Positions 52,436 through 63,797 of a stretch of DNA of 64,000 nt are shown one piece after another (position 1 is the stretch's first letter; every line of letters starts with the position of its first letter). Below the pieces are notes generated by a model. The model saw only the letters and a list, made by a program, of their open reading frames with translations, had not been told where the DNA came from and did not search any database. The stretch is from contig NC_005363.1 of the NCBI RefSeq assembly GCF_000196175.1, positions 2,542,001-2,606,000 on the forward strand. The letters run 5' to 3'. Both the position numbers and the translations under genes were made by a program. The DNA is from Bdellovibrio bacteriovorus HD100 (GTDB lineage: Bacteria > Bdellovibrionota > Bdellovibrionia > Bdellovibrionales > Bdellovibrionaceae).

Positions 52436-54394
52436 ATGAAGCGCGCCTATTACTCCAATGATATTTCTCGATTCCTTGTCGATGCCCCATCCAGCATCCT
52501 TGGATTACTGAGCAAAGCACATGATTTTACCTTAGAAGAACAGCAAAAGAATGCCTGGGTAAAGCAGATCGAGATTCTCCAGACTTCTCTTCAGGGAATA
52601 CCTGGGCACGTCTATTTTGAATATTCTATCCCTCGTGTCGGCAAACGTGTTGACCTGATAGTCATCTCTGGAAATGCTCTATTTTCAATTGAATTTAAGG
52701 TTGGTTCTAGTCAATTTGATTCATATGCTGCCGATCAAGCAATGGACTATGCACTTGACCTAAAGAACTTCCACGAAGGAAGTCATCAAATAGACATCTT
52801 TCCCGTACTGGTCGCGACAGAAGCAACCCATACTGAAGCCTTGCCCTCTCGCTTTGATGATGGCGTTTGGTCTTTAACTAGGACAAATTCTCAAAATCTA
52901 TCCACTCATCTGCAGGCTCTCAAAACGAATGCAAAAGGACCTGAGATTGATCTTTTGAAATGGGACGCCTCAGGGTACAAGCCAACTCCGACAATCGTTG
53001 AAGCGGCAAAAGCCCTTTACTCAGGTCACCAGGTTGAAGAAATTAGTCGTTCCGATGCCGGCGCTACCAACTTGTCCATTACCTCTGCGGCATTAAAAAA
53101 GATTATTGACGAATCGATCTCGCAGAAAAAGAAAACTATTTGCCTTGTTACTGGCGTCCCTGGTGCGGGGAAGACACTAGTCGGCCTTGACCTAGCAACT
53201 TCATGGAATAATCCAGTTGCAAACCAACATGCGGTTCTTTTGTCTGGCAATGGTCCTTTAGTAGAAATTCTCCAAGAAGCATTAGCAAAAGACGAGGCAA
53301 ATAGGTCCAAAGCTTCAAGCCCCGTTAAACTTAGTGCTGCCCGTGCAAAGGCAAAGTCATTTATACAAAACATTCACCACTTCCGAGATGAAGGTCTTCG
53401 AACCGATGCTCCTCCACCCGAAAAAGTAGTTATTTTTGATGAAGCGCAGAGAGCTTGGAACAAAACACAAACCACCAAGTTCATGAAGACGAAGAAAGGT
53501 GTAGCAGACTTTGATCACTCAGAACCTGAATATCTCATTAAACTTATGGATCGCCACGCGGACTGGGCTGTAATCATCTGCCTTGTCGGCGGTGGCCAAG
53601 AAATCAATACAGGTGAAGCTGGTATCTCTGAGTGGTTGGATGCAATTCACAACAAATTTCCCCACTGGCAAGTGTGCCTCCCGTCAACTACCTCATCGGC
53701 CGACATTCCAAATATCGAGAAATTTGTTCAAGCCTTCAGTAGTCGCCATCACGTCGACAAAAACCTTCACCTTACGGCATCAGTTAGATCGTTTAGATCC
53801 GAACGAGTTTCTGACTTCATGTCAGCCCTTCTTGATAAGGACATCGACAAGGCCAAGGCTCTCTATTCCGAAATCAAAGAAAAGTACCCGATCAAGCTGA
53901 CACGAAGCCTTGAGGAAGCAAAGCTTTGGCTGAAAGAGAAGTCTCGTGGCAATGAGCGGTATGGCATTTTGGCCTCTTCGGGTGCTGGGAGACTCAAAGC
54001 CCACGGCTTGGACGTAAAATCTCGTATAGAGCCAGTTAATTGGTTTCTGAACGATAAGAAGGATGTCAGATCTTCATTCTTCATGGAAGACGTTGCAACC
54101 GAGTTTCATGTGCAAGGCCTGGAGCTAGATTGGACGTGCGTTGCATGGGATATCGACTTTATTCTGTCCTTAAAAAAAGAGACTAAGTTCCGCAGTTTTG
54201 CGGGTACAAAATGGAACAACATCAAAAGCAGTACTGATCAGTCCTACTTAAAAAACAAGTACCGCGTGCTATTGACTAGGGCGAGACAAGGATTGGTTCT
54301 CTTTGTGCCGAAGGGGGATCCCCATGATGGCACTCGCCCCCCTGGAGACTATGAAGAGCTCTTCTCCTATTTACAGTATATCCTTAATGACTAG
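52436..54394 (+). CDS. PD-(D/E)xK nuclease-like N-terminus fused to a DUF2075 helicase-like ATPase
   Basis: The 652-residue protein starts with a nuclease-type core (GKRVDLIVISGNALFSIEFKVG, about 65-85; D, then E-x-K). The DUF2075 (Schlafen group 3-like) ATPase is at about 220-640: Walker A TGVPGAGKTLVGLDLA (about 238), Walker B VVIFDEAQRAWN (about 330), and C-terminal helicase motifs VQGLELDWTCVAWD and LLTRARQGLVLFVPKGD. Related proteins occur in defence islands. The likely role is nucleic-acid cleavage coupled to ATP hydrolysis, by inference. It sits 42 bases after the SPFH gene, beyond a hairpin. Confidence 0.85.
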   Translation: MKRAYYSNDISRFLVDAPSSILGLLSKAHDFTLEEQQKNAWVKQIEILQTSLQGIPGHVYFEYSIPRVGKRVDLIVISGNALFSIEFKVGSSQFDSYAADQAMDYALDLKNFHEGSHQIDIFPVLVATEATHTEALPSRFDDGVWSLTRTNSQNLSTHLQALKTNAKGPEIDLLKWDASGYKPTPTIVEAAKALYSGHQVEEISRSDAGATNLSITSAALKKIIDESISQKKKTICLVTGVPGAGKTLVGLDLATSWNNPVANQHAVLLSGNGPLVEILQEALAKDEANRSKASSPVKLSAARAKAKSFIQNIHHFRDEGLRTDAPPPEKVVIFDEAQRAWNKTQTTKFMKTKKGVADFDHSEPEYLIKLMDRHADWAVIICLVGGGQEINTGEAGISEWLDAIHNKFPHWQVCLPSTTSSADIPNIEKFVQAFSSRHHVDKNLHLTASVRSFRSERVSDFMSALLDKDIDKAKALYSEIKEKYPIKLTRSLEEAKLWLKEKSRGNERYGILASSGAGRLKAHGLDVKSRIEPVNWFLNDKKDVRSSFFMEDVATEFHVQGLELDWTCVAWDIDFILSLKKETKFRSFAGTKWNNIKSSTDQSYLKNKYRVLLTRARQGLVLFVPKGDPHDGTRPPGDYEELFSYLQYILND

Positions 54395-54522: not shown

Positions 54523-55176
54523 CTAAGGATTCATCCCCTGCTTTTTCTGATATTCTCCCAGCTCAGGCTCCTTTAAATTGGTCTGAAATTTCATAATCAA
54601 ATTTCTCAGCCTTTTCTCGAGGGCATTCTGATAGGTGCCCGCTATCTCGTCCTTCAGTTTGAACTCTGGGTCTTCTTCCCGGCTAAAACGCTCAGCACCC
54701 ACAAGAGAATCCATATAAATACTAGTAACTTCTGACGCCTTAACCGCAATGCTGATTTTACTAGAATCCCCGACTTTACTTAGCTCCCTTGGCCCCATAT
54801 GAAAAGAGCTTTGAATTAGGGTTATGAGATGCTCAGCTTTGACCATATCGTCGGAAAACTCTCTATGAGCTAATTTATTCCTGATTCCATTGAGCTCCCT
54901 CAACAATCTAAATAAAGGAAGCTTGTCGTGATCCGGAGTCACACTCTCCAACAACAACAGTTTTTCACTAAAGCCCATTTTCGTTTTTGATTCGATATAA
55001 TGCTTAACTTGCGGGCATAAGCTTAGAATTAGCCTCTCCATGTTGATTTCAATTCTATTCTGGTAAAATAGAAACTGCCCAAGTGCTCTGCTTAGCTCAT
55101 CAGATGGTCCGGGCCTTTCAACAGCTCCCTTGATTCGATCCAAAGCTTTTTGCACCAACTTATTTTGATCTTCCAT
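54523..55176 (-). CDS. Helical protein with a HEPN-like RNKLAH motif
   Basis: The 217-residue, mostly helical protein has RELNGIRNKLAHREF at about residues 117-131. R-N-x3-H is the core HEPN ribonuclease motif (Rx4H), and the flanking helices fit that fold. HEPN proteins often cut RNA in toxin-antitoxin and abortive-infection systems. No MNT antitoxin gene lies next to it, so this is a suggestion only. ATG 55176 has AAAGG upstream; the longer TTG start at 55191 lacks one. It lies downstream of the integrase gene on the same strand, about 55 bases away. Confidence 0.6.
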   Translation of the reverse strand: MEDQNKLVQKALDRIKGAVERPGPSDELSRALGQFLFYQNRIEINMERLILSLCPQVKHYIESKTKMGFSEKLLLLESVTPDHDKLPLFRLLRELNGIRNKLAHREFSDDMVKAEHLITLIQSSFHMGPRELSKVGDSSKISIAVKASEVTSIYMDSLVGAERFSREEDPEFKLKDEIAGTYQNALEKRLRNLIMKFQTNLKEPELGEYQKKQGMNP

Positions 55177-55231
55177 GCTCGTGCCTTTCAAAATAGTTCC
55201 GTAATTGCGAACTCCATTTTATATTACATTC

Positions 55232-56335
55232 CTAAATTGTTTCGAGCTTTTTAATGGCGATCACTTTAAATTCTATCTCACAGGGTAGTAAATCGAGCAC
55301 ATCTGTAGGCCCCTGTATATCTACACCTGCCAGGCGAAAATAGTGCTGAAAGCTTTTAGTATTCTCCCAACCACCAAGCTTCATTGTTGTTACAATGTCC
55401 AAGCCACCGACGAGGCACTGCACCGCAAAACAAGCTCGCGTTGCATGAAAAGTAATCTCAGGAAGTCCCAACGCCTGACAAAAGCTCCGAGACACTTTAG
55501 ATGCGTCTCCACGCCTCCACGACGTTATCCTAGGGAGAACATAGCCCGTCGATGCGGTCTTCAATTTTAACTCTTTTAAGAGCATTTCGAGCGCGGCATT
55601 AATAGGGATCTGCCTGGAATGTTTGGTTTTGGTCGATTTGTCGCATCCGAGCCTACTTGAGAATGAAATATCAGTCCATCGAAGCGCCCACAACTCCCCT
55701 GATCTACACCCCGTACTAACTGCCACCGCCCACAAATAATAATATTCGTGACCGATTTCTCGTGCTTTTCCTAAAAAGAGTTTTATTTCGTCACGATTAA
55801 GTATGGGCTGCATCTTAGTTTCAACCTTGGGAATTGCCACCCCTCGTCCTGGGCTTTCAACATGGGCAGGAATAATGCGTTCTAACTGGGTCCAGTCGAA
55901 CAGTGTATTCACGGCGCTGCGAACAGACTTCATCCGTCCTTTCGACAACCCTTTCTTCTCCATTTCGTTAAAGATCAACCTCATCGACATTGGACGTAAT
56001 TGTTCGACAGGAAATTGCATCCAAGTTTTGGTTTGCATCTGAAGGGCATTATAAATGTCCCGCTTGCTCAAGCTTTGTTCATAGGGGCCATTCATTAAAA
56101 CATCCTTGCTCCAACGCGACAAAATATCGCGCCAAACAAGTCCGTTTCGTTCTTTTTCAAGACGTTGAGCTTCCGCTTCTTTTTTAAGCTTTTCGTATTC
56201 GCGCTTAGCTTCTACATTTGTTACAGCTCCAAGATCTCGCTGCAATCGAACATTAGCTCTAGCGATGCGACTTCGAGAGGTAAATTGAATCTTGAAACAT
56301 ACCTGCCCATCTCTTTGATATACTCTAATTGCCAT
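55232..56335 (-). CDS. Tyrosine-type site-specific recombinase/integrase
   Basis: The 367-residue phage-type integrase has an N-terminal Arg/Lys-rich arm-binding region (to about 75), a SAM-like core-binding domain and a catalytic domain. The catalytic residues are seen: Arg in TGCRSGELWALRW (about 212), Lys/His region TKHSRQIPI, HATR (H-x2-R, about 298), Trp/His region GGWENT and the Tyr nucleophile in SFQHYF (about 335). It should integrate or excise the element at an att site that I could not find. Confidence 0.9.
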   Translation of the reverse strand: MAIRVYQRDGQVCFKIQFTSRSRIARANVRLQRDLGAVTNVEAKREYEKLKKEAEAQRLEKERNGLVWRDILSRWSKDVLMNGPYEQSLSKRDIYNALQMQTKTWMQFPVEQLRPMSMRLIFNEMEKKGLSKGRMKSVRSAVNTLFDWTQLERIIPAHVESPGRGVAIPKVETKMQPILNRDEIKLFLGKAREIGHEYYYLWAVAVSTGCRSGELWALRWTDISFSSRLGCDKSTKTKHSRQIPINAALEMLLKELKLKTASTGYVLPRITSWRRGDASKVSRSFCQALGLPEITFHATRACFAVQCLVGGLDIVTTMKLGGWENTKSFQHYFRLAGVDIQGPTDVLDLLPCEIEFKVIAIKKLETI

Positions 56336-56489: not shown

Positions 56490-57147
56490 GTGATCGAAGA
56501 AATGTTTTTACCCCTATATCTCCATTACGACCATGGCTTTACCGCAATGGCTGGCTCATTTGAGCGCATAGCCAAAGAATCAATCAAAGAAAAAAGTGGT
56601 GATTTCAATCGCCACCTCCCCATTGCTTTTAAAAGGCGCGATTGTTATTTTAAATAAAAGGTTAAACTTAACAGACGGCAAAGAAGACTCGATTTGCTCT
56701 ATTTCAAAGGGGGCCGATCGAATTTCATTTAAAAAGGTTCACTCTCTAAGCCAGCTCTTCGAACATTTCCGAGATTTAGTAATCACACACCAAAGTCAGC
56801 TAAGAGATATCGCAAAAACCGATTGGACGAAAATCCCTGAGCATATCGAGATAGATATTAAACTCGTTGAACAGGTTGACCGAACATCCACTTTCTTTCG
56901 CTATCCAGATCCTATGTCGCCAACAGGCGACAAGGTAAAATCTGGTATGCAAGAAAGAAATCCAGAAATACGTCCACCAAAGCCCACAATTTCTTTATTT
57001 GTCGATAGTCCTCATGGAAATAAAATGTATTCTTTGGATCATCAACCCATGAATGATGTAGTCCAAGCTCTCTTCAGACTAGCAGAAACACTAGCTGGCG
57101 CCGCCCTTGGTCTTCGCCACGAAATAGGTGAAAATCGTCTGCGTTAA
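56490..57147 (+). pseudogene. Unknown gene interrupted by a frame change
   Basis: GTG 56490 is preceded by a textbook AGGAGG at 56479-56484. The first frame (VIEEMFLPLYLHYDHG) ends with TAA at 56655-56657. A second frame, shifted by +1, runs to 57147 and carries LLLKGAIVILNKRLNLTDGKE and more. Reading the first 45 codons and then this frame gives one continuous protein of about 215 residues; the switch would lie near the run TTTTAAAA at 56625-56640. It is a decayed gene, a sequence error, or programmed frameshifting. The family is unknown. The shifted frame also has its own GTG at 56596. Confidence 0.55.
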
Positions 57148-57159
57148 GTGCGCCAACGA

Positions 57160-60100
57160 TTAAAACATCGAGGCAATTGCTAACCAAAGAGCTTCAATTA
57201 TCTTCTCCCAAAACTTCGCTATAAGACCAAGGCAAATGAAAGATAGGAGATAAAGAAGCAACACCTTCTTCCAATCGAGCTTGGAGTCCCCGAACCTTTT
57301 CCTTGGGTAAAAGATCAATCCCGAAGGATAACAACTAATAACATGCTTATCATGAGCGGTTGTAACAAAACCGTGCTTCTCTAAAAGATCATGGGTATCG
57401 ACCTTCCATGAGTGCAACCTTGAGAAACTATCCTTCAAATACGTCCCAGTCTCCGGTCTAAGATAGTCAACTATCTTGTCAAAAAATAAAACGCCGAATA
57501 TCTCGATACCATCCGACCTCACCACATCATACTTAAGATGAATATTTTCAAAATTCGTTGAAATTTGTTTTTGTCGCTCAGCCTCATCTTCAGCAAAGGT
57601 TGGCTCTACATCAATAACTTTTCTAATCTTTTGAAGCTTCAACTTTCGAAGCCTCAAAGCCCCCAACTCATCGAAAATATCATTAAATCGACGCTCCAAA
57701 AGATCTTCATACACTTTGAAGTTAGAAAGATCGGGTGAAAGATAGTTCACTCTCAATAGTTTCTCAAGATCGTCAAAAAAAGAATTAATTTCTTTTTCCA
57801 AAGATTGCTTACTACCGCTCGCAATATCATAAGTAGAGCCCAGTTCCTCCATTGAGTTGCGAATTTGTACGAGGCCAACAAGGGCTAAAGTGACTACTGC
57901 GGCCCTGTCAGACATTGAATACTTATCAATAGATTTGTATAAAAAAAGCAGACTATATCCTGTAACCAGATCGATACTTGGAAGATTTTTAGTTTTAAAT
58001 TCTTTGTGAAGCTCAATATCTTCGCGAACGAAACGATATAAATTTTGATTTATACCTTCTCTTTTATCAGGAACAATACCTAAGATGTGTTTCGCATTCT
58101 GAAGAATTTCGTAATTCACAAACATCACAGATGAAGTGCCCTGTCTTAAGCGGACTTTACGATGACGCTTATACAGATCTCTAAAAATAGAATAACAGTA
58201 GAAGTTTACAAGATCCGCACTCTTATTCGCCTCTCCTTTCATAATCCAAGATCCGTAGCGCTTAATACTACTAATTTTAGAGGCAACATCTGATGGCTTT
58301 TTGTTAAAAAAGCTAGCTTTGCTACTATCCTGCAACGTATTTAAGAATTCCCACCCGCCTAGTCCATATGAAAATGATTTTGCATCATTAACGCCACAAG
58401 CAGCATTGAACTCCATTATGCGGCGACCAGGTAAGATAGATTTTTTTCGGTTTACAACCTTAACAACAGACTCATTCTTAAAGGTATATGTTCCATTGAT
58501 AGTATCCTTCAACACTTGACTTACATCTAATGGAATTATCTTGGTGGTGTTTCTATCTCGAGCCAGCCCTAGGTTCTTGGCAGACAATATAAGATCGACC
58601 AGACGATCTTGATCTTGAAACAGAAATAGCTCTGCACCCAGAATATCATCGAAACTGTTGGATGAATCGAGGTATGAAGACAGATCATCTATATCAATTT
58701 TAGGAAATTTGTAAACAAGTGCAATTTCCTTAGTCTTCTCATCTATATGAAGCATTACCTCACCAAGCTTACTAAGTGAGTTAAGTTTTTTTGCAGCAAA
58801 AATCATTTTCTTATTTGAAATACCAGGAAAATTTACGAGATTCGGAAAAGAGATAGTATAATAGTTTTCGCCATCACCAATGATTTTCATTGAGTTGACC
58901 TTATTCACAATCTCGATGCGATCAGGCTCTCGTTTCGTCATTTCAAATATCATTTTTTTGAGAAGTGCTGTATGCCCCTGGATGAAGTCATCTTCTTGCC
59001 TGCTAACTAGTTTTTGATCTAAAAAAGAATCAAAATCTGCCCAGAAAACTTCTTTCACCGGATGAATGCTATAATCGTAGGCTACTTTAAAAAATGCATA
59101 ACGTTCAGGCATACTCAACCCGTCATGCATTTTAATAATCTGATCAACAAAGTATTTTACTTGAAAGTTAAATATTGTTCCTGACTCAACACAAATCTTT
59201 CTGAAACCATCAGGAGAAATTTCCATTTGCTGCAAATCTCGTACTATTCCTGCAAGATTTTTATGACCGACATCTGCACCGACTCCCCATATCTTTTCAT
59301 CAAACACTCGATTATCGTCAACCAAGTACTCGATCTCTTTTAGAAGCATATCAAAGAGAAGAGATTTATGCGATGAGCCGCTCAAATCAACCTTCAAAAT
59401 CTCGGTCCCGATAGCTTTGACGCGTGCGGACCCATCCAAACAAAGTTCTCTCACCAATAAACTTAGAATATTCTCCTGACAATCTTTACGTCCGTTCATA
59501 TAAAGTTTGAGAAATAGCTCTTTCAGCTCTCCTATTTCCTCGTGCAAAGAAATTACAAACCCCAATAGTAGCCCGCTAAGACTAGTCCGCAATTTATGAG
59601 ATAAAATAGGACTTTCTAAGAATTTACAAATCACACTGCCAAGACTGAGAATCTCTTCTTTAAAATTTACTCCATCCATGACGAGCTCAGGTATGCGCCA
59701 CTGCATAGCTGATATGTCTCTCTCTAAATCCTTTATATTTACCCCGGAATCACCAGATAAATACTTTTTTAACCGCGAATCAAACAGACGCGTAATAACT
59801 CTTAAGAGTTCTCGCTTTTCATCGGGATCAACCTTGCTTAACTCGGACTCAAATCGAACTTGATACTTATAAAGGTCATTATCTAATTGATTCTGTCTAT
59901 ACTCTTCTATCTCGAATAACGATACTTTTTCAGATCCATCTTCTTTATGAAAAGAAACTTCAAATTTCTCCTCCAGCTCATTCAAAAGACCTTGAATGCG
60001 AGAGAGAACACTATGATCTTTAATAAAAAAATGAAAGTCGTCGCAGTATCTCACCATCTGAAAGTCATTCGGCGAAACTGAGTTTGAAATTTGAGCATCT

Positions 60101-61878
60101 ATCTTAAGGAGAAGTCTCGAAGCAATCACATGCGCTATCAAAGGTCCTTGAGGCAAACCTGTATCGCGAGCTACCGCGGCTCCATCTCTGTAGTTCTTTA
60201 AGGAAGCTTTGGACGTCGACGACACAACGTCAATAATTCTAGCGTCTTTAAATATTTCGCCTATTAGTCGTTTTGCGTGCTCACTCGTAATTTTAGGATA
60301 AAAACTCTTCAGATCCGTTGACAGCACAAGCGCGTGCGGCGTTGTTTCTGCTATAGATTTCAAGGTATTTCTAAAATCTGAATATTCAGCTCTCCACGAT
60401 CCAATTAGAGCTTTCCCCGAAGTATCACTCTGCTGATATCCGAATGAATGGACACTCGGATTTTTAATATTCTCTACTTTAAATTTTTTATTATTTCTCA
60501 ACCCTTTTTCACAAAACAGACTACTTAGTAATTCAGTTTCAAACCCAACACGAACCAGATCTCTTTGGGCATTCTCTTGTTTTAACACTTTAATCAAAAG
60601 ACCGGTGGATTCTGGAATTGCCAGACGTCGGAGATAATCTGACACACCGATCGCAAAGAGATCGACCTGATCAAGAAATTGCTTAGCATTAGTCCAGTCG
60701 AAAAAATCAGTAGTTGTAGTATGATAATTCAAAAGCTTAACTGCTACATTTTTGATATTTTCGGAAGATGCGAGATGATCCCACGAATCCACATCTGACG
60801 ATCTTTTTGATAAGTATCCTGGGTATTGAATCTCAGATTTTGTTTTACCTTTATATCTATCGCAAAGCTCTTTACAGATTCCCTTTTCGTGCAACATTTC
60901 GCATGTTCCAACGAAATTTAGCCCATCAATCTTTTCTTGAGTTATTGTCCTTTTGTACTTTTCGGTTTTTGACAAAATCTCATGCACCAATTTGTCTCGC
61001 AAATCGGAATCTTTCAGAGCTGACGCCAAAGCCAACCTCTCATTATGATCAGCATCGTGCGTTGATATAATTTTCGAGCCTAACTGACGTAAAGCGCGAC
61101 ATGAGTAGTATGATACGTACGCATTCGTATCATTGCTTTTCGATATGCGAGATTTTTTTATCGTTCTCTTCTTTCGCTCTCTTTCAACTCCAACATCTTC
61201 GTTCTCTACGGAAAGATTACCTAGTAGCTGACTTAGAAACTCATTTTTTCCGTCCGATATTTCAAATCTTGAGTAAAATTCCGTCGTGACAGGCTGAGAC
61301 CGCTTTGCCAGAGTAAGAATATTTGACAGCCCCGCACCCAAGTCATTGAGAGTTAAGGGTGTCTTATAAAGACCCGACTTATTATTGATAGAATATTCTG
61401 CACGCATCATTCGATGAGTTCCAAATATGGAATCATCCAGGTATTCAGACATGCTAGGAACAAGTTCGGAAAATATCTTCTTTACTAGATCTTTTTGTTG
61501 CTTAGGTGGGAACAAATCGGAATCTGGAATAAATCCAAAAATTGCCTTCGTATTAAGTAGAATATGAAAGCCTTTGCTTCCGCTAAAAGCTACAGAAAAA
61601 TCTTTATCGAAGGTTAGACCTTTCTCAATAAATTCTTTTACGATCGCTATCGTAACGGTCAAAGATGCCTCTAGGTCCTTTGAGTCAATATCGATAAAAA
61701 GAAACGGGTAAAGCGTCTTATTGCCATCATAAAGCTGTATCGAATAATAAAATGCCTTTTTTCTCTGTCTAGCTTGCTCAGATAAGTTCAATAGATAGCT
61801 AACTTCACTCTGGTTCAATTTTGACCAAACTTCATTGCCTTCCGCTCTTACGTGCGATGTCTGAAAAATAAATCTCAT
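57160..61878 (-). CDS. Primase-polymerase (AEP) and reverse transcriptase fusion with C-terminal membrane anchor
   Basis: The 1572-residue protein has an archaeo-eukaryotic primase domain at the start: FLFIDIDS (Asp63, Asp65), SGSKGFH (99-105) and a third acidic/basic motif around DDSIFGTHRMMR and SINNKSG (about 148-170). A C-x3-H-x4-C-x3-C group (CEMLHEKGICKELC, about 325-340) may bind zinc. The reverse transcriptase lies at about 440-680: motif A LSTDLKSFYPKI (about 520), motif B TGLPQGPLIAHVIASR, and the catalytic YCDD (about 612). About 850 residues of unknown, mostly helical sequence follow, then a hydrophobic C-terminus (VLLLYLLSFICLGLIA and IIEALWLAIASMF). The GLPQGP form is that of defence-type (UG/Abi) RTs rather than retrons or group II introns. 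Confidence 0.88.
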   Translation of the reverse strand: MRFIFQTSHVRAEGNEVWSKLNQSEVSYLLNLSEQARQRKKAFYYSIQLYDGNKTLYPFLFIDIDSKDLEASLTVTIAIVKEFIEKGLTFDKDFSVAFSGSKGFHILLNTKAIFGFIPDSDLFPPKQQKDLVKKIFSELVPSMSEYLDDSIFGTHRMMRAEYSINNKSGLYKTPLTLNDLGAGLSNILTLAKRSQPVTTEFYSRFEISDGKNEFLSQLLGNLSVENEDVGVERERKKRTIKKSRISKSNDTNAYVSYYSCRALRQLGSKIISTHDADHNERLALASALKDSDLRDKLVHEILSKTEKYKRTITQEKIDGLNFVGTCEMLHEKGICKELCDRYKGKTKSEIQYPGYLSKRSSDVDSWDHLASSENIKNVAVKLLNYHTTTTDFFDWTNAKQFLDQVDLFAIGVSDYLRRLAIPESTGLLIKVLKQENAQRDLVRVGFETELLSSLFCEKGLRNNKKFKVENIKNPSVHSFGYQQSDTSGKALIGSWRAEYSDFRNTLKSIAETTPHALVLSTDLKSFYPKITSEHAKRLIGEIFKDARIIDVVSSTSKASLKNYRDGAAVARDTGLPQGPLIAHVIASRLLLKIDAQISNSVSPNDFQMVRYCDDFHFFIKDHSVLSRIQGLLNELEEKFEVSFHKEDGSEKVSLFEIEEYRQNQLDNDLYKYQVRFESELSKVDPDEKRELLRVITRLFDSRLKKYLSGDSGVNIKDLERDISAMQWRIPELVMDGVNFKEEILSLGSVICKFLESPILSHKLRTSLSGLLLGFVISLHEEIGELKELFLKLYMNGRKDCQENILSLLVRELCLDGSARVKAIGTEILKVDLSGSSHKSLLFDMLLKEIEYLVDDNRVFDEKIWGVGADVGHKNLAGIVRDLQQMEISPDGFRKICVESGTIFNFQVKYFVDQIIKMHDGLSMPERYAFFKVAYDYSIHPVKEVFWADFDSFLDQKLVSRQEDDFIQGHTALLKKMIFEMTKREPDRIEIVNKVNSMKIIGDGENYYTISFPNLVNFPGISNKKMIFAAKKLNSLSKLGEVMLHIDEKTKEIALVYKFPKIDIDDLSSYLDSSNSFDDILGAELFLFQDQDRLVDLILSAKNLGLARDRNTTKIIPLDVSQVLKDTINGTYTFKNESVVKVVNRKKSILPGRRIMEFNAACGVNDAKSFSYGLGGWEFLNTLQDSSKASFFNKKPSDVASKISSIKRYGSWIMKGEANKSADLVNFYCYSIFRDLYKRHRKVRLRQGTSSVMFVNYEILQNAKHILGIVPDKREGINQNLYRFVREDIELHKEFKTKNLPSIDLVTGYSLLFLYKSIDKYSMSDRAAVVTLALVGLVQIRNSMEELGSTYDIASGSKQSLEKEINSFFDDLEKLLRVNYLSPDLSNFKVYEDLLERRFNDIFDELGALRLRKLKLQKIRKVIDVEPTFAEDEAERQKQISTNFENIHLKYDVVRSDGIEIFGVLFFDKIVDYLRPETGTYLKDSFSRLHSWKVDTHDLLEKHGFVTTAHDKHVISCYPSGLIFYPRKRFGDSKLDWKKVLLLYLLSFICLGLIAKFWEKIIEALWLAIASMF

Positions 61879-62037
61879 CTGCTGCCCTTCAAAGTGAGTT
61901 ATAACTTTTCGGACAAAATAAACAAAAGTTTACTATTCCTTAGTCTAGACCCTGCCAACAGGGGCACGCTGCGTCGTATCGCCAATAATATGGGCAACTA
62001 TGCTAGCTTGATTGCATCTCAGAAGGGACACTCATGA
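61852..62037 (+). CDS. Possible short upstream ORF coupled to the SIR2 gene
   Basis: A frame of up to 61 residues ends with TGA at 62035-62037, overlapping the SIR2 ATG (62034). The last 35 residues (FLSLDPANRGTLRRIANNMG, then SLIASQKGHS) use GC-rich codons (CTG CGT CGT ATC GCC) and look protein-like. The first part overlaps the RT gene start, so the true start is unclear. It may be a leader peptide or the tail of a replaced gene. Confidence 0.3.
   Translation: MRCLKNKSHLLPFKVSYNFSDKINKSLLFLSLDPANRGTLRRIANNMGNYASLIASQKGHS
61897..61906. promoter_or_regulatory. Palindrome in the divergent RT/SIR2 promoter region
   Basis: AGTTATAACT is a perfect 10-bp palindrome 19 bases upstream of the RT start codon. 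A small hairpin CCCTG-CCAA-CAGGG (61950-61963) lies further toward the SIR2 gene. Either could be an operator or RNA element; both are short enough to arise by chance. The 155-base gap holds no other clear signal, and no retron-type msr-msd structure was seen. Confidence 0.3.
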
Positions 62038-63134
62038 CAAAATTGAGTCAAAATTTACTAATCATCGGAGCCGGTGCACATAAGCCATATCGTTTTCCAA
62101 CCAGCAATGACATCAATAAAAAATTAAAAGACCTTCTTACTGCCGGAAAAATTATTTTTGTAAATGAGACGTCGTCCTCACATAAGTCGCAAGCTTTTTT
62201 AGAAAAACAAAGACTTTGCAGAAAAATTATGGATATGAATTTGCTGCCTGGAGCCGAAAAATACGGCTCCAATTCAAAAGACATATTCATAGGGCAGCAA
62301 CTCGATGAATTCATCAAATCATTTGCAGCTTCAAGCGCTACCTCGATTGACTCTTATCTTTCCCGCATACACCTATCGAAGAATGACTACAAAAGAACTG
62401 TTTACCCCACGCTTGGTAAGTTTCTTCTGTCTTATTTAATCTCGAACATCGAGAATCAAGAACCAATCGGCTGCCAAGATGCAGACTGGATACAGTTTCT
62501 AATTAAAGAATATATAGAGCCATCACCAGATGAATTCTTTAAATCACCCCCCAAAATAGTAACATTCAACTATGATCGACTTCTCGAAAGATACATCTAC
62601 GAACATTTGATCGAGTTTCATCACATGCCCGAAGAGGAAGCGAAGACTCTCGTTGATTCACTAGATATTCTTCATGTTTATGGTGATCTGGGAGCCTACA
62701 CCGAATGGTCTCCTCAGAGCGATTCTTTTTATACCGAGGCATGTAGTCGTATCAAAGTAATCGGCGAAGACCGAGATGAAAACTCCATCACCGATGTAAG
62801 AAAAAAAATAAAAAATATCATCGAGGAAGCAACTAAAATATACTTCCTTGGCTATGGATTCGATCCTATTAATAATGATTTAATATTCAAATCTCTCAAA
62901 GAGGACTGGCGCAAAGGAAAATATATATTCTCCACAAATATCGGCATTGGGCAGAGAGATCGGACTCGAATTTACAATCAGATTGGTTTTTTACCAGCCT
63001 TCCTAAAAAAGAAGTCTATTCATGGAGACGTAATGTGTCTGGATTTACTCAAAAATTTAGTTCCATTGGAAAAAAGCATAAAGCCCAAAAGAAAGATGAT
63101 CGTCAAATCCAAACCGTTTGTTTCCGAGTGGTAA
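62034..63134 (+). CDS. SIR2-like protein
   Basis: The 366-residue protein has the NAD-binding opening NLLIIGAGAHKPYRFPTSNDI (GAGA instead of GAGxS), the defence-type 'TFNYD' motif (PKIVTFNYDRLLERYI, about 180), the catalytic-region HVYGDLG (about 220) and YFLGYGFDP (about 280). SIR2-like domains in Thoeris, DSR and short-Argonaute systems destroy NAD+ on phage infection. That activity is inferred from family. AGAAGGGA precedes the ATG. It is divergent from the AEP-RT gene across 155 bases, so a shared system is likely. Confidence 0.82.
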   Translation: MTKLSQNLLIIGAGAHKPYRFPTSNDINKKLKDLLTAGKIIFVNETSSSHKSQAFLEKQRLCRKIMDMNLLPGAEKYGSNSKDIFIGQQLDEFIKSFAASSATSIDSYLSRIHLSKNDYKRTVYPTLGKFLLSYLISNIENQEPIGCQDADWIQFLIKEYIEPSPDEFFKSPPKIVTFNYDRLLERYIYEHLIEFHHMPEEEAKTLVDSLDILHVYGDLGAYTEWSPQSDSFYTEACSRIKVIGEDRDENSITDVRKKIKNIIEEATKIYFLGYGFDPINNDLIFKSLKEDWRKGKYIFSTNIGIGQRDRTRIYNQIGFLPAFLKKKSIHGDVMCLDLLKNLVPLEKSIKPKRKMIVKSKPFVSEW

Positions 63135-63149
63135 GTGAACTTGAAAATA

Positions 63150-63797
63150 CTACTTTCTATAGTGGTTAACTAACTGTGGAACCAAAAATCCTTCCTCGGG
63201 GGTCGCATGAATCAAGCGTTTAACAAACGGATACAAATATCGCTCGGTCCCATCGACGGTCAGCTCGAAACTTTGCAAAGGAAAATCGGGTTGCATTTCC
63301 GAAAACATAAATCTTGGATCACTATAACTTACGCAAAATGAAACAATACAACTATCCCTTTCAGGAAGAATTTGATTTACTTCGACCACAACTCCAGGAA
63401 CATCAGAATTAAAATTCGCGACAGTCACGACCGGCACCCTTTGCATCGGATGCCGATACCTAATATGAACCTCATAAAAACTTCTTGTGTAATCTCGAGA
63501 TGCTTTTAAAACCGTGTATCTTGAACTGTCGCGATAGAGAACCATAGACTTTTCAAAGTAATGCATTCGCCGACCACGAACTTGCCTAAGTAATTGTAAA
63601 AACAAAGTTCCTAAGAAAACACAGAATGACACCATCATGGGTTTATCCAGCCAAATATCTTTTAGTTGCTCGGAAAACACTGATCCCAAAAGTGTTAATA
63701 AAGCAAAAATAACAGCTTTAACTTCCGCGAAACGAAAGATATGTAAAGCAAGCTCTGGCAACGACCGCAAAGTTCCACAAAAATATGTATTTGACAT
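63150..63797 (-). CDS. Two-TM protein with C-terminal beta-rich domain
   Basis: The 215-residue protein has two TM segments (VKAVIFALLTLLGSVFSEQL, about 28-47; MMVSFCVFLGTLFLQLL, about 54-70). About 140 residues of strand-rich sequence (VPVVTVANFNSDVPGVVVEVN, CIVSFCVSYSDPRFMF, LQSFELTVDG) follow. The layout is like Cap15-type CBASS effectors (two TM plus beta barrel), but I see no sequence proof. It converges on the SIR2 gene, 15 bases apart. Confidence 0.7.
   Translation of the reverse strand: MSNTYFCGTLRSLPELALHIFRFAEVKAVIFALLTLLGSVFSEQLKDIWLDKPMMVSFCVFLGTLFLQLLRQVRGRRMHYFEKSMVLYRDSSRYTVLKASRDYTRSFYEVHIRYRHPMQRVPVVTVANFNSDVPGVVVEVNQILPERDSCIVSFCVSYSDPRFMFSEMQPDFPLQSFELTVDGTERYLYPFVKRLIHATPEEGFLVPQLVNHYRK

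Follow-up and report, generated by a model that had tools for sequence, protein, structure and literature searches.

A PrimPol-reverse transcriptase fusion in Bdellovibrio bacteriovorus, probably a DRT7-like defence protein with a phage-type primase core

One gene of Bdellovibrio bacteriovorus HD100 encodes a protein that joins a primase-polymerase (PrimPol) to a reverse transcriptase (RT), and the catalytic residues of both parts are intact. The gene lies in the window analysed here, a stretch of 64,000 nucleotides (contig NC_005363.1, positions 2,542,001 to 2,606,000). Its product is most likely a DRT7-like anti-phage DNA-synthesizing system, which would have been assembled at least partly independently.

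We consider it fairly probable that the protein is a single-protein, defence-associated PrimPol-RT working like DRT7/UG10. A PrimPol unit of a phage or mobile element, made of the core and a four-cysteine domain, would have been placed before an UG/Abi-type RT, and since this unit differs from that of UG10, the partnership would have been assembled, or the primase replaced, separately from UG10. We infer that upon phage infection the RT and PrimPol sites of the one polypeptide make a DNA product, which would harm the infected cell or tie up phage factors. In the C-terminal half a helical scaffold of the usual kind probably comes first, and the hydrophobic tail may tether the enzyme to the inner membrane. 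A bolder form of the proposal, which we put forward tentatively and hold to be rather doubtful, is a second independently assembled antiviral PrimPol-RT class, in which a captured phage or mobile-element primase and an UG-type RT are combined with a new membrane-tethered C-terminal module that is switched on by the DNA product or by infection.

Two DNA-making activities are reportedly combined in DRT7, a recent case among defence enzymes. A second joining of a phage-type primase to a defence RT, if it occurred, would mean that the partnership as such is important for function and arose on more than one occasion, with the replication primases of phages serving as raw material for anti-phage weapons. 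The gene belongs to a well-studied predatory bacterium, so the proposal is directly testable.

Table 1. Features of the fusion gene and of the surrounding low-GC island (positions in the window)
Feature	Coordinates	Strand	Basis
PrimPol-RT fusion gene, 1572 aa	57160..61878	-	open frame, ATG, GAAGG upstream, Pfam primase and RT
Residues 1-240, AEP primase-polymerase core, phage/mobile-element type	61159..61878	-	DNA_primase_S, invariant catalytic residues, 110.8 vs 6.3 bits
Residues 258-345, four-cysteine domain (C260, C326, C335, C339)	60844..61107	-	UG10_large match, E=9.3e-5
Residues 380-690, UG/Abi-type RT and its N-terminal region	59809..60741	-	RVT_1, PADLOC UG profiles, blastp with L116
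Residues 691-980, predicted all-helical region	58939..59808	-	single-sequence AlphaFold2
Residues 981-1535, region without any relative found	57274..58938	-	no match in PADLOC, Pfam, PHROGs, PDB sequences, plasmids, phages, viral contigs
Residues 1536-1572, hydrophobic C-terminal tail, possible membrane anchor	57163..57273	-	hydropathy peak at 1539-1557
Tyrosine integrase of the island	55232..56335	-	Phage_integrase, E=7.6e-17
Small HEPN-like gene travelling with the integrase	54523..55191	-	weak match to the Csx1 HEPN type, E=0.008; G020 neighbour of 73% identity
SIR2-like gene, divergent from the RT gene, same low-GC island	62034..63134	+	SIR2_2, E=4e-6
Protein with hydrophobic segments, no family; last gene of the in-window low-GC stretch	63150..63797	-	hydropathy above 1.6 near residues 16-42 and 52-73

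Domain architecture and active sites

The reading frame is free of internal stops, and a Shine-Dalgarno-like GAAGG is located about 7 nt upstream of its ATG. Two Pfam families are matched above their curated cut-offs, DNA_primase_S at residues 62–176 (E=1.9e-10) and RVT_1 at residues 503–639 (E=8.5e-8). The PrimPol active site comprises Asp63, Asp65, His105 and Asp148, with the motif SGSKGFH at residues 99–105, and an alignment with five PrimPols from phages, plasmids and the same family shows D63, D65, S99, G100, K102, G103, H105, D148, R156 and R159 to be invariant. The RT active site contains Asp522, the GLPQGP motif (574–579) and the YCDD motif (611–614). The first-pass annotation had read from the translation a DxD and SGSKGFH in an AEP domain, an RT with GLPQGP and YCDD, and a possible zinc group; the motifs are present where it placed them, each within a matched Pfam domain, and the four cysteines are found as well (Table 1). 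As judged from the sequence, both sites should be catalytically competent. An N-terminal PrimPol followed by an UG-type RT within a single frame, with catalytic residues intact in both, is also the arrangement expected of DRT7/UG10.

The 155-nt intergenic region upstream of the gene folds no better than its shuffles (z=-1.0) and has no match in Rfam. No structured RNA was seen upstream, in keeping with a system made of protein alone.

No full-length relative was found in single-protein scans of viral contigs or in phylum-wide scans with the RT_UG10_large profile. A PrimPol-motif scan of genome contigs likewise returned no RT fusion, nor did that of the viral contigs. The UG10_large scan of the host phylum and of other phyla yielded one truncated PrimPol-RT (L116), a CRISPR RT-PrimPol, PrimPols and other RTs. 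A 2102-residue RT frame in another genome (L136, G303:C391) was considered as a relative and rejected, as it looks like a eukaryotic-type retroelement. This frame is LINE-like, with endonuclease, RT and RNase H-like parts, and is probably a eukaryotic contamination of a metagenome-assembled genome.

Relationship to UG10 and to other PrimPols and RTs

The closest described system is DRT7/UG10, which the first-pass annotation had named as a related PrimPol-RT defence class. The PADLOC profile RT_UG10_large, of 1688 positions, is colinear with residues 237–679 of the window protein (56 bits), and blastp with L116 is colinear over residues 260–621 (24% identity, E=3e-17); by these two matches the order of PrimPol, Cys domain and RT, as well as the overall length, are those of UG10. 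The same annotation had named the length among features not familiar from such DRT classes, which is not borne out by a profile of this size. It had also named a full-length match to a described DRT type as evidence against its reading, and such a match was not obtained: only profile positions 230–666 are covered and the C-terminal part is not, although homology could be missed at such divergence. DRT7 is described, in a preprint only (PMC13213688), as performing protein-primed, protein-templated synthesis of palindromic A/T-rich DNA; it is also cited in PMC13174585. It is reported to need no RNA template. Cryo-EM structures of DRT7/UG10 are reported in a preprint by Figiel et al. (2026), cited in PMC13314766.

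Both proteins carry a PrimPol, a Cys domain and an RT in one long polypeptide encoded by a single gene, with both active sites, but their primases belong to different Pfam families. Those of UG10 and L116 match AEP-TOTE (E=1.6e-13 and 7e-27), while the window protein matches DNA_primase_S and shows no AEP-TOTE match. Residues 1–240 score 110.8 bits with a phage-type PrimPol HMM, built from sequences that had been fetched by their likeness to the window protein, and 6.3 bits with an UG10/CAPP-type HMM; as a control, a true UG10 that was withheld from the model of its own type reaches 95.5 bits with that type and 5.2 with the phage type. The Pfam division agrees with these scores and is free of the selection of the phage-type set. 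In PrimPol trees, whose branches are long and in which the window protein joins between the two groups, UG10, L116 and the CRISPR type form one clade at 100/99 with the window protein outside it. The AU test rejects a clade of the window and UG10 PrimPols (p-AU 1.6e-4, or 1.35e-3 with more phage rows). On these comparisons the core is of a lineage other than that of UG10, namely the phage/mobile-element type, so the first-pass reading stands as to the nearest described system but had overlooked the separate lineage of the primase. AlphaFold2 run without an alignment gave a pLDDT of about 40 for residues 1–345.

The Cys domain shows the other affinity. Taken alone, it matches UG10_large positions 254–338 in PADLOC, and it scores 24 bits with the UG10/CAPP-type HMM against under 4 with the phage type. 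Cys260, Cys326 and Cys339 are invariant, and Cys335 is shared by one of the two other PrimPol-RT fusions. The combination of a phage-type core with this domain is also found in a mobile-element PrimPol-helicase (L076) and in a viral PrimPol (L170), so that residues 1–345 resemble a whole PrimPol unit of the phage or mobile-element kind. In this sample, a primase replaced in an UG10 ancestor and an independent fusion would account for the arrangement alike. The replicative PrimPols of phages and mobile elements (phrog_16345; L076, L170) have the same type of core, but they are stand-alone or fused to a helicase, and among the 130 loci fetched none of them is fused to an RT.

The profile search by segment that had been proposed placed the primase in DNA_primase_S and the RT among the UG/Abi classes. 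The RT segment alone scores best with RT_UG36 (69.5 bits), followed by UG31 (63.5), with UG10_large fifth at 51.5 bits. RT_UG36 also leads for the whole protein, at 64.5 bits as compared with 47.2 and 42.6 bits for group II intron and retron models, a rough comparison since the libraries differ. By these profile scores the RT is of the UG/Abi type. The match to UG36 covers only positions 100–265, the RT core alone, and a profile of 557 positions is too short to accommodate a fused PrimPol or the 880-residue C-terminal half. In an RT tree that contained no UG36 sequence, the window RT is placed beside the true UG10 of a Peribacillus plasmid at 77/89, a weak preference, and the AU test does not reject an RT clade of the window protein, UG10 and L116 (p=0.47).

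The protein could also be a fast-diverged member of UG10/DRT7, in which one PrimPol-RT fusion was inherited and the primase core altered beyond recognition. The shared domain order, the similar length, the Cys domain and the RT clade all fit such a descent, but it would have to accommodate a primase core of another Pfam family that scores with the phage type as clearly as a left-out true UG10 scores with its own, a shared PrimPol clade that the AU test rejects, and an RT whose best profile is UG36; we regard it as unlikely. Because the primase lineage differs and the UG10_large profile is not matched over its full length, the window protein is not filed as a member of UG10. These two results lower the claim that it is DRT7 and leave unlowered the claim that it works like DRT7.

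The true UG10_large gene used for comparison is found on the Peribacillus muralis plasmid NZ_CP017081.1 (L127/L128; 974 bits). It spans the start of the record, is cut off near an IS3-family transposase, and is absent from the table annotation of the plasmid. The truncated relative (L116/L126, G1007:C240) is an AEP-TOTE PrimPol-RT that ends at the contig end and scores 168 bits with UG10_large; it may be another class.

The C-terminal half

A long C-terminal region of no known sequence and a hydrophobic terminus had both been noted on first reading, and both are present. Residues 681–1572 have no convincing match in PADLOC, where nothing appears up to E=10, or in Pfam, PHROGs, solved structures, plasmids, phages, viral contigs and 24 genomes of the genus, and tblastn of this half against plasmids and phages gave none. 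The C-terminus had one match in G014 (E=0.06); it falls within a sensor histidine kinase and was set aside as fortuitous.

The single-sequence AlphaFold2 model of residues 681–1572 is almost entirely helical as far as about residue 980, at a poor mean pLDDT of 41. Within residues 691–980 the pLDDT is 55–78 for about the first 100 residues only and falls below 50 beyond them. The RTs of the UG/Abi group are usually followed by a helical repeat, and the predicted helices of residues 691–980 probably represent it.

The hydrophobic stretch at residues 1539–1557 has a mean Kyte-Doolittle hydropathy of 2.23, is preceded by basic residues and is placed like a tail anchor. Since 15% of whole-protein shuffles reach this peak somewhere, only its position at the extreme C-terminus makes it notable. 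A C-terminal membrane anchor is plausible from the hydropathy profile.

Alternatively, the RT and primase could act as a sensor or guard, and the C-terminal half with its tail would be a toxic effector, released or switched on when a phage blocks DNA synthesis. About 550 residues without a relative and a hydrophobic tail at the very end would suit an effector, and other defence RTs carry effector domains, for example the nitrilase of an UG5 protein described below. However, no toxin or pore-forming family was matched, and the tail is a single stretch of unexceptional hydropathy, which makes this explanation distinctly improbable.

The low-GC island and its integrase cassette

Over the final 8 kb of the window the GC content drops from about 52% to 37–39%; it returns to 51% some 2–3 kb beyond the window's end, past a tRNA-Met gene at window position ~64111. 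No exact repeat of at least 14 bases, as expected of an attachment site, was found between the tRNA region and the last 14 kb of the window. Two repeats of 12–13 bases are shared with the tRNA region, both inside the RT gene, and look like chance.

The integrase of the island (81% identity) and the small HEPN-like gene (73%) recur with their order and orientation conserved in another genome of the genus (G020); the HEPN-like copy of that genome matches the Csx1 HEPN type at E=9e-5. There the two genes come after a 1038-residue RT that scores 701 bits with RT_UG5-nitrilase. In a genome of the same order (L158, G080:C24:79000-92000), a 60%-identical integrase adjoins a DNA methylase, an Mrr-type endonuclease and a DUF559 protein, which suggests a restriction-modification cargo. 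The fusion gene is thus located beside a mobile integrase cassette with interchangeable defence cargo, and this context, with the UG5-nitrilase RT and the restriction-modification genes, speaks for a role of the window protein in defence. The assignment of the fusion to the world of defence RTs, made at first reading, holds, but the cassette had been overlooked. An integrase cassette with changing cargo also offers a handle for finding more defence systems in the host order.

A role in the replication of the integrating element, or as its retroelement enzyme, rather than in defence, is very improbable. The PrimPol unit does resemble the replication primases of mobile elements (L076, L170) and an integrase adjoins the gene, but no helicase domain or replication gene was found within the fusion or adjoining it, the related integrases carry the defence cargoes described above instead, and the RT is of the UG/Abi type. 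Least credible is a CRISPR-adaptation RT-PrimPol of the CAPP type: a fusion of RT and PrimPol in one protein adjoining cas1 does exist (G1281) and the Cys domain shows a weak PrimPol_Msp match (E=0.0013), but the G1281 protein has its RT first and its PrimPol second, the latter of the UG10/CAPP lineage, and no cas gene occurs among the scanned neighbours of the window gene, so that domain order and PrimPol lineage already contradict this explanation. In G1281 the fusion adjoins a Cas1-like frame (L135, G1281:C7:40500-46500).

The defence-associated PrimPol-RT of the window has several further neighbours and cassette relatives of note. The G020 locus (L147, G020:C1:1638000-1647000) also holds a DUF4238 gene and a second integrase, and is a mobile defence cassette whose RT cargo differs. 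In a third genome (L159, G012:C1:1299500-1311000) the related integrase is divided between two overlapping frames. It adjoins a cysteine-rich protein of 587 residues, which has hydrophobic segments and matches no Pfam family. A run of 11 residues present in the G020, G080 and G012 copies of the integrase, which reads ETRMISITKSF in G020, is missing from the window integrase, and the latter may for this reason be inactive. Between the integrase and the RT gene, on the opposite strand, positions 56596–57147 could plausibly encode a protein of 183 residues that belongs to no known family. Just outside the island, at positions 52436–54394, lies a gene for a Schlafen group 3 helicase domain protein, which scores 909 bits with the candidate defence family PDC-S41.
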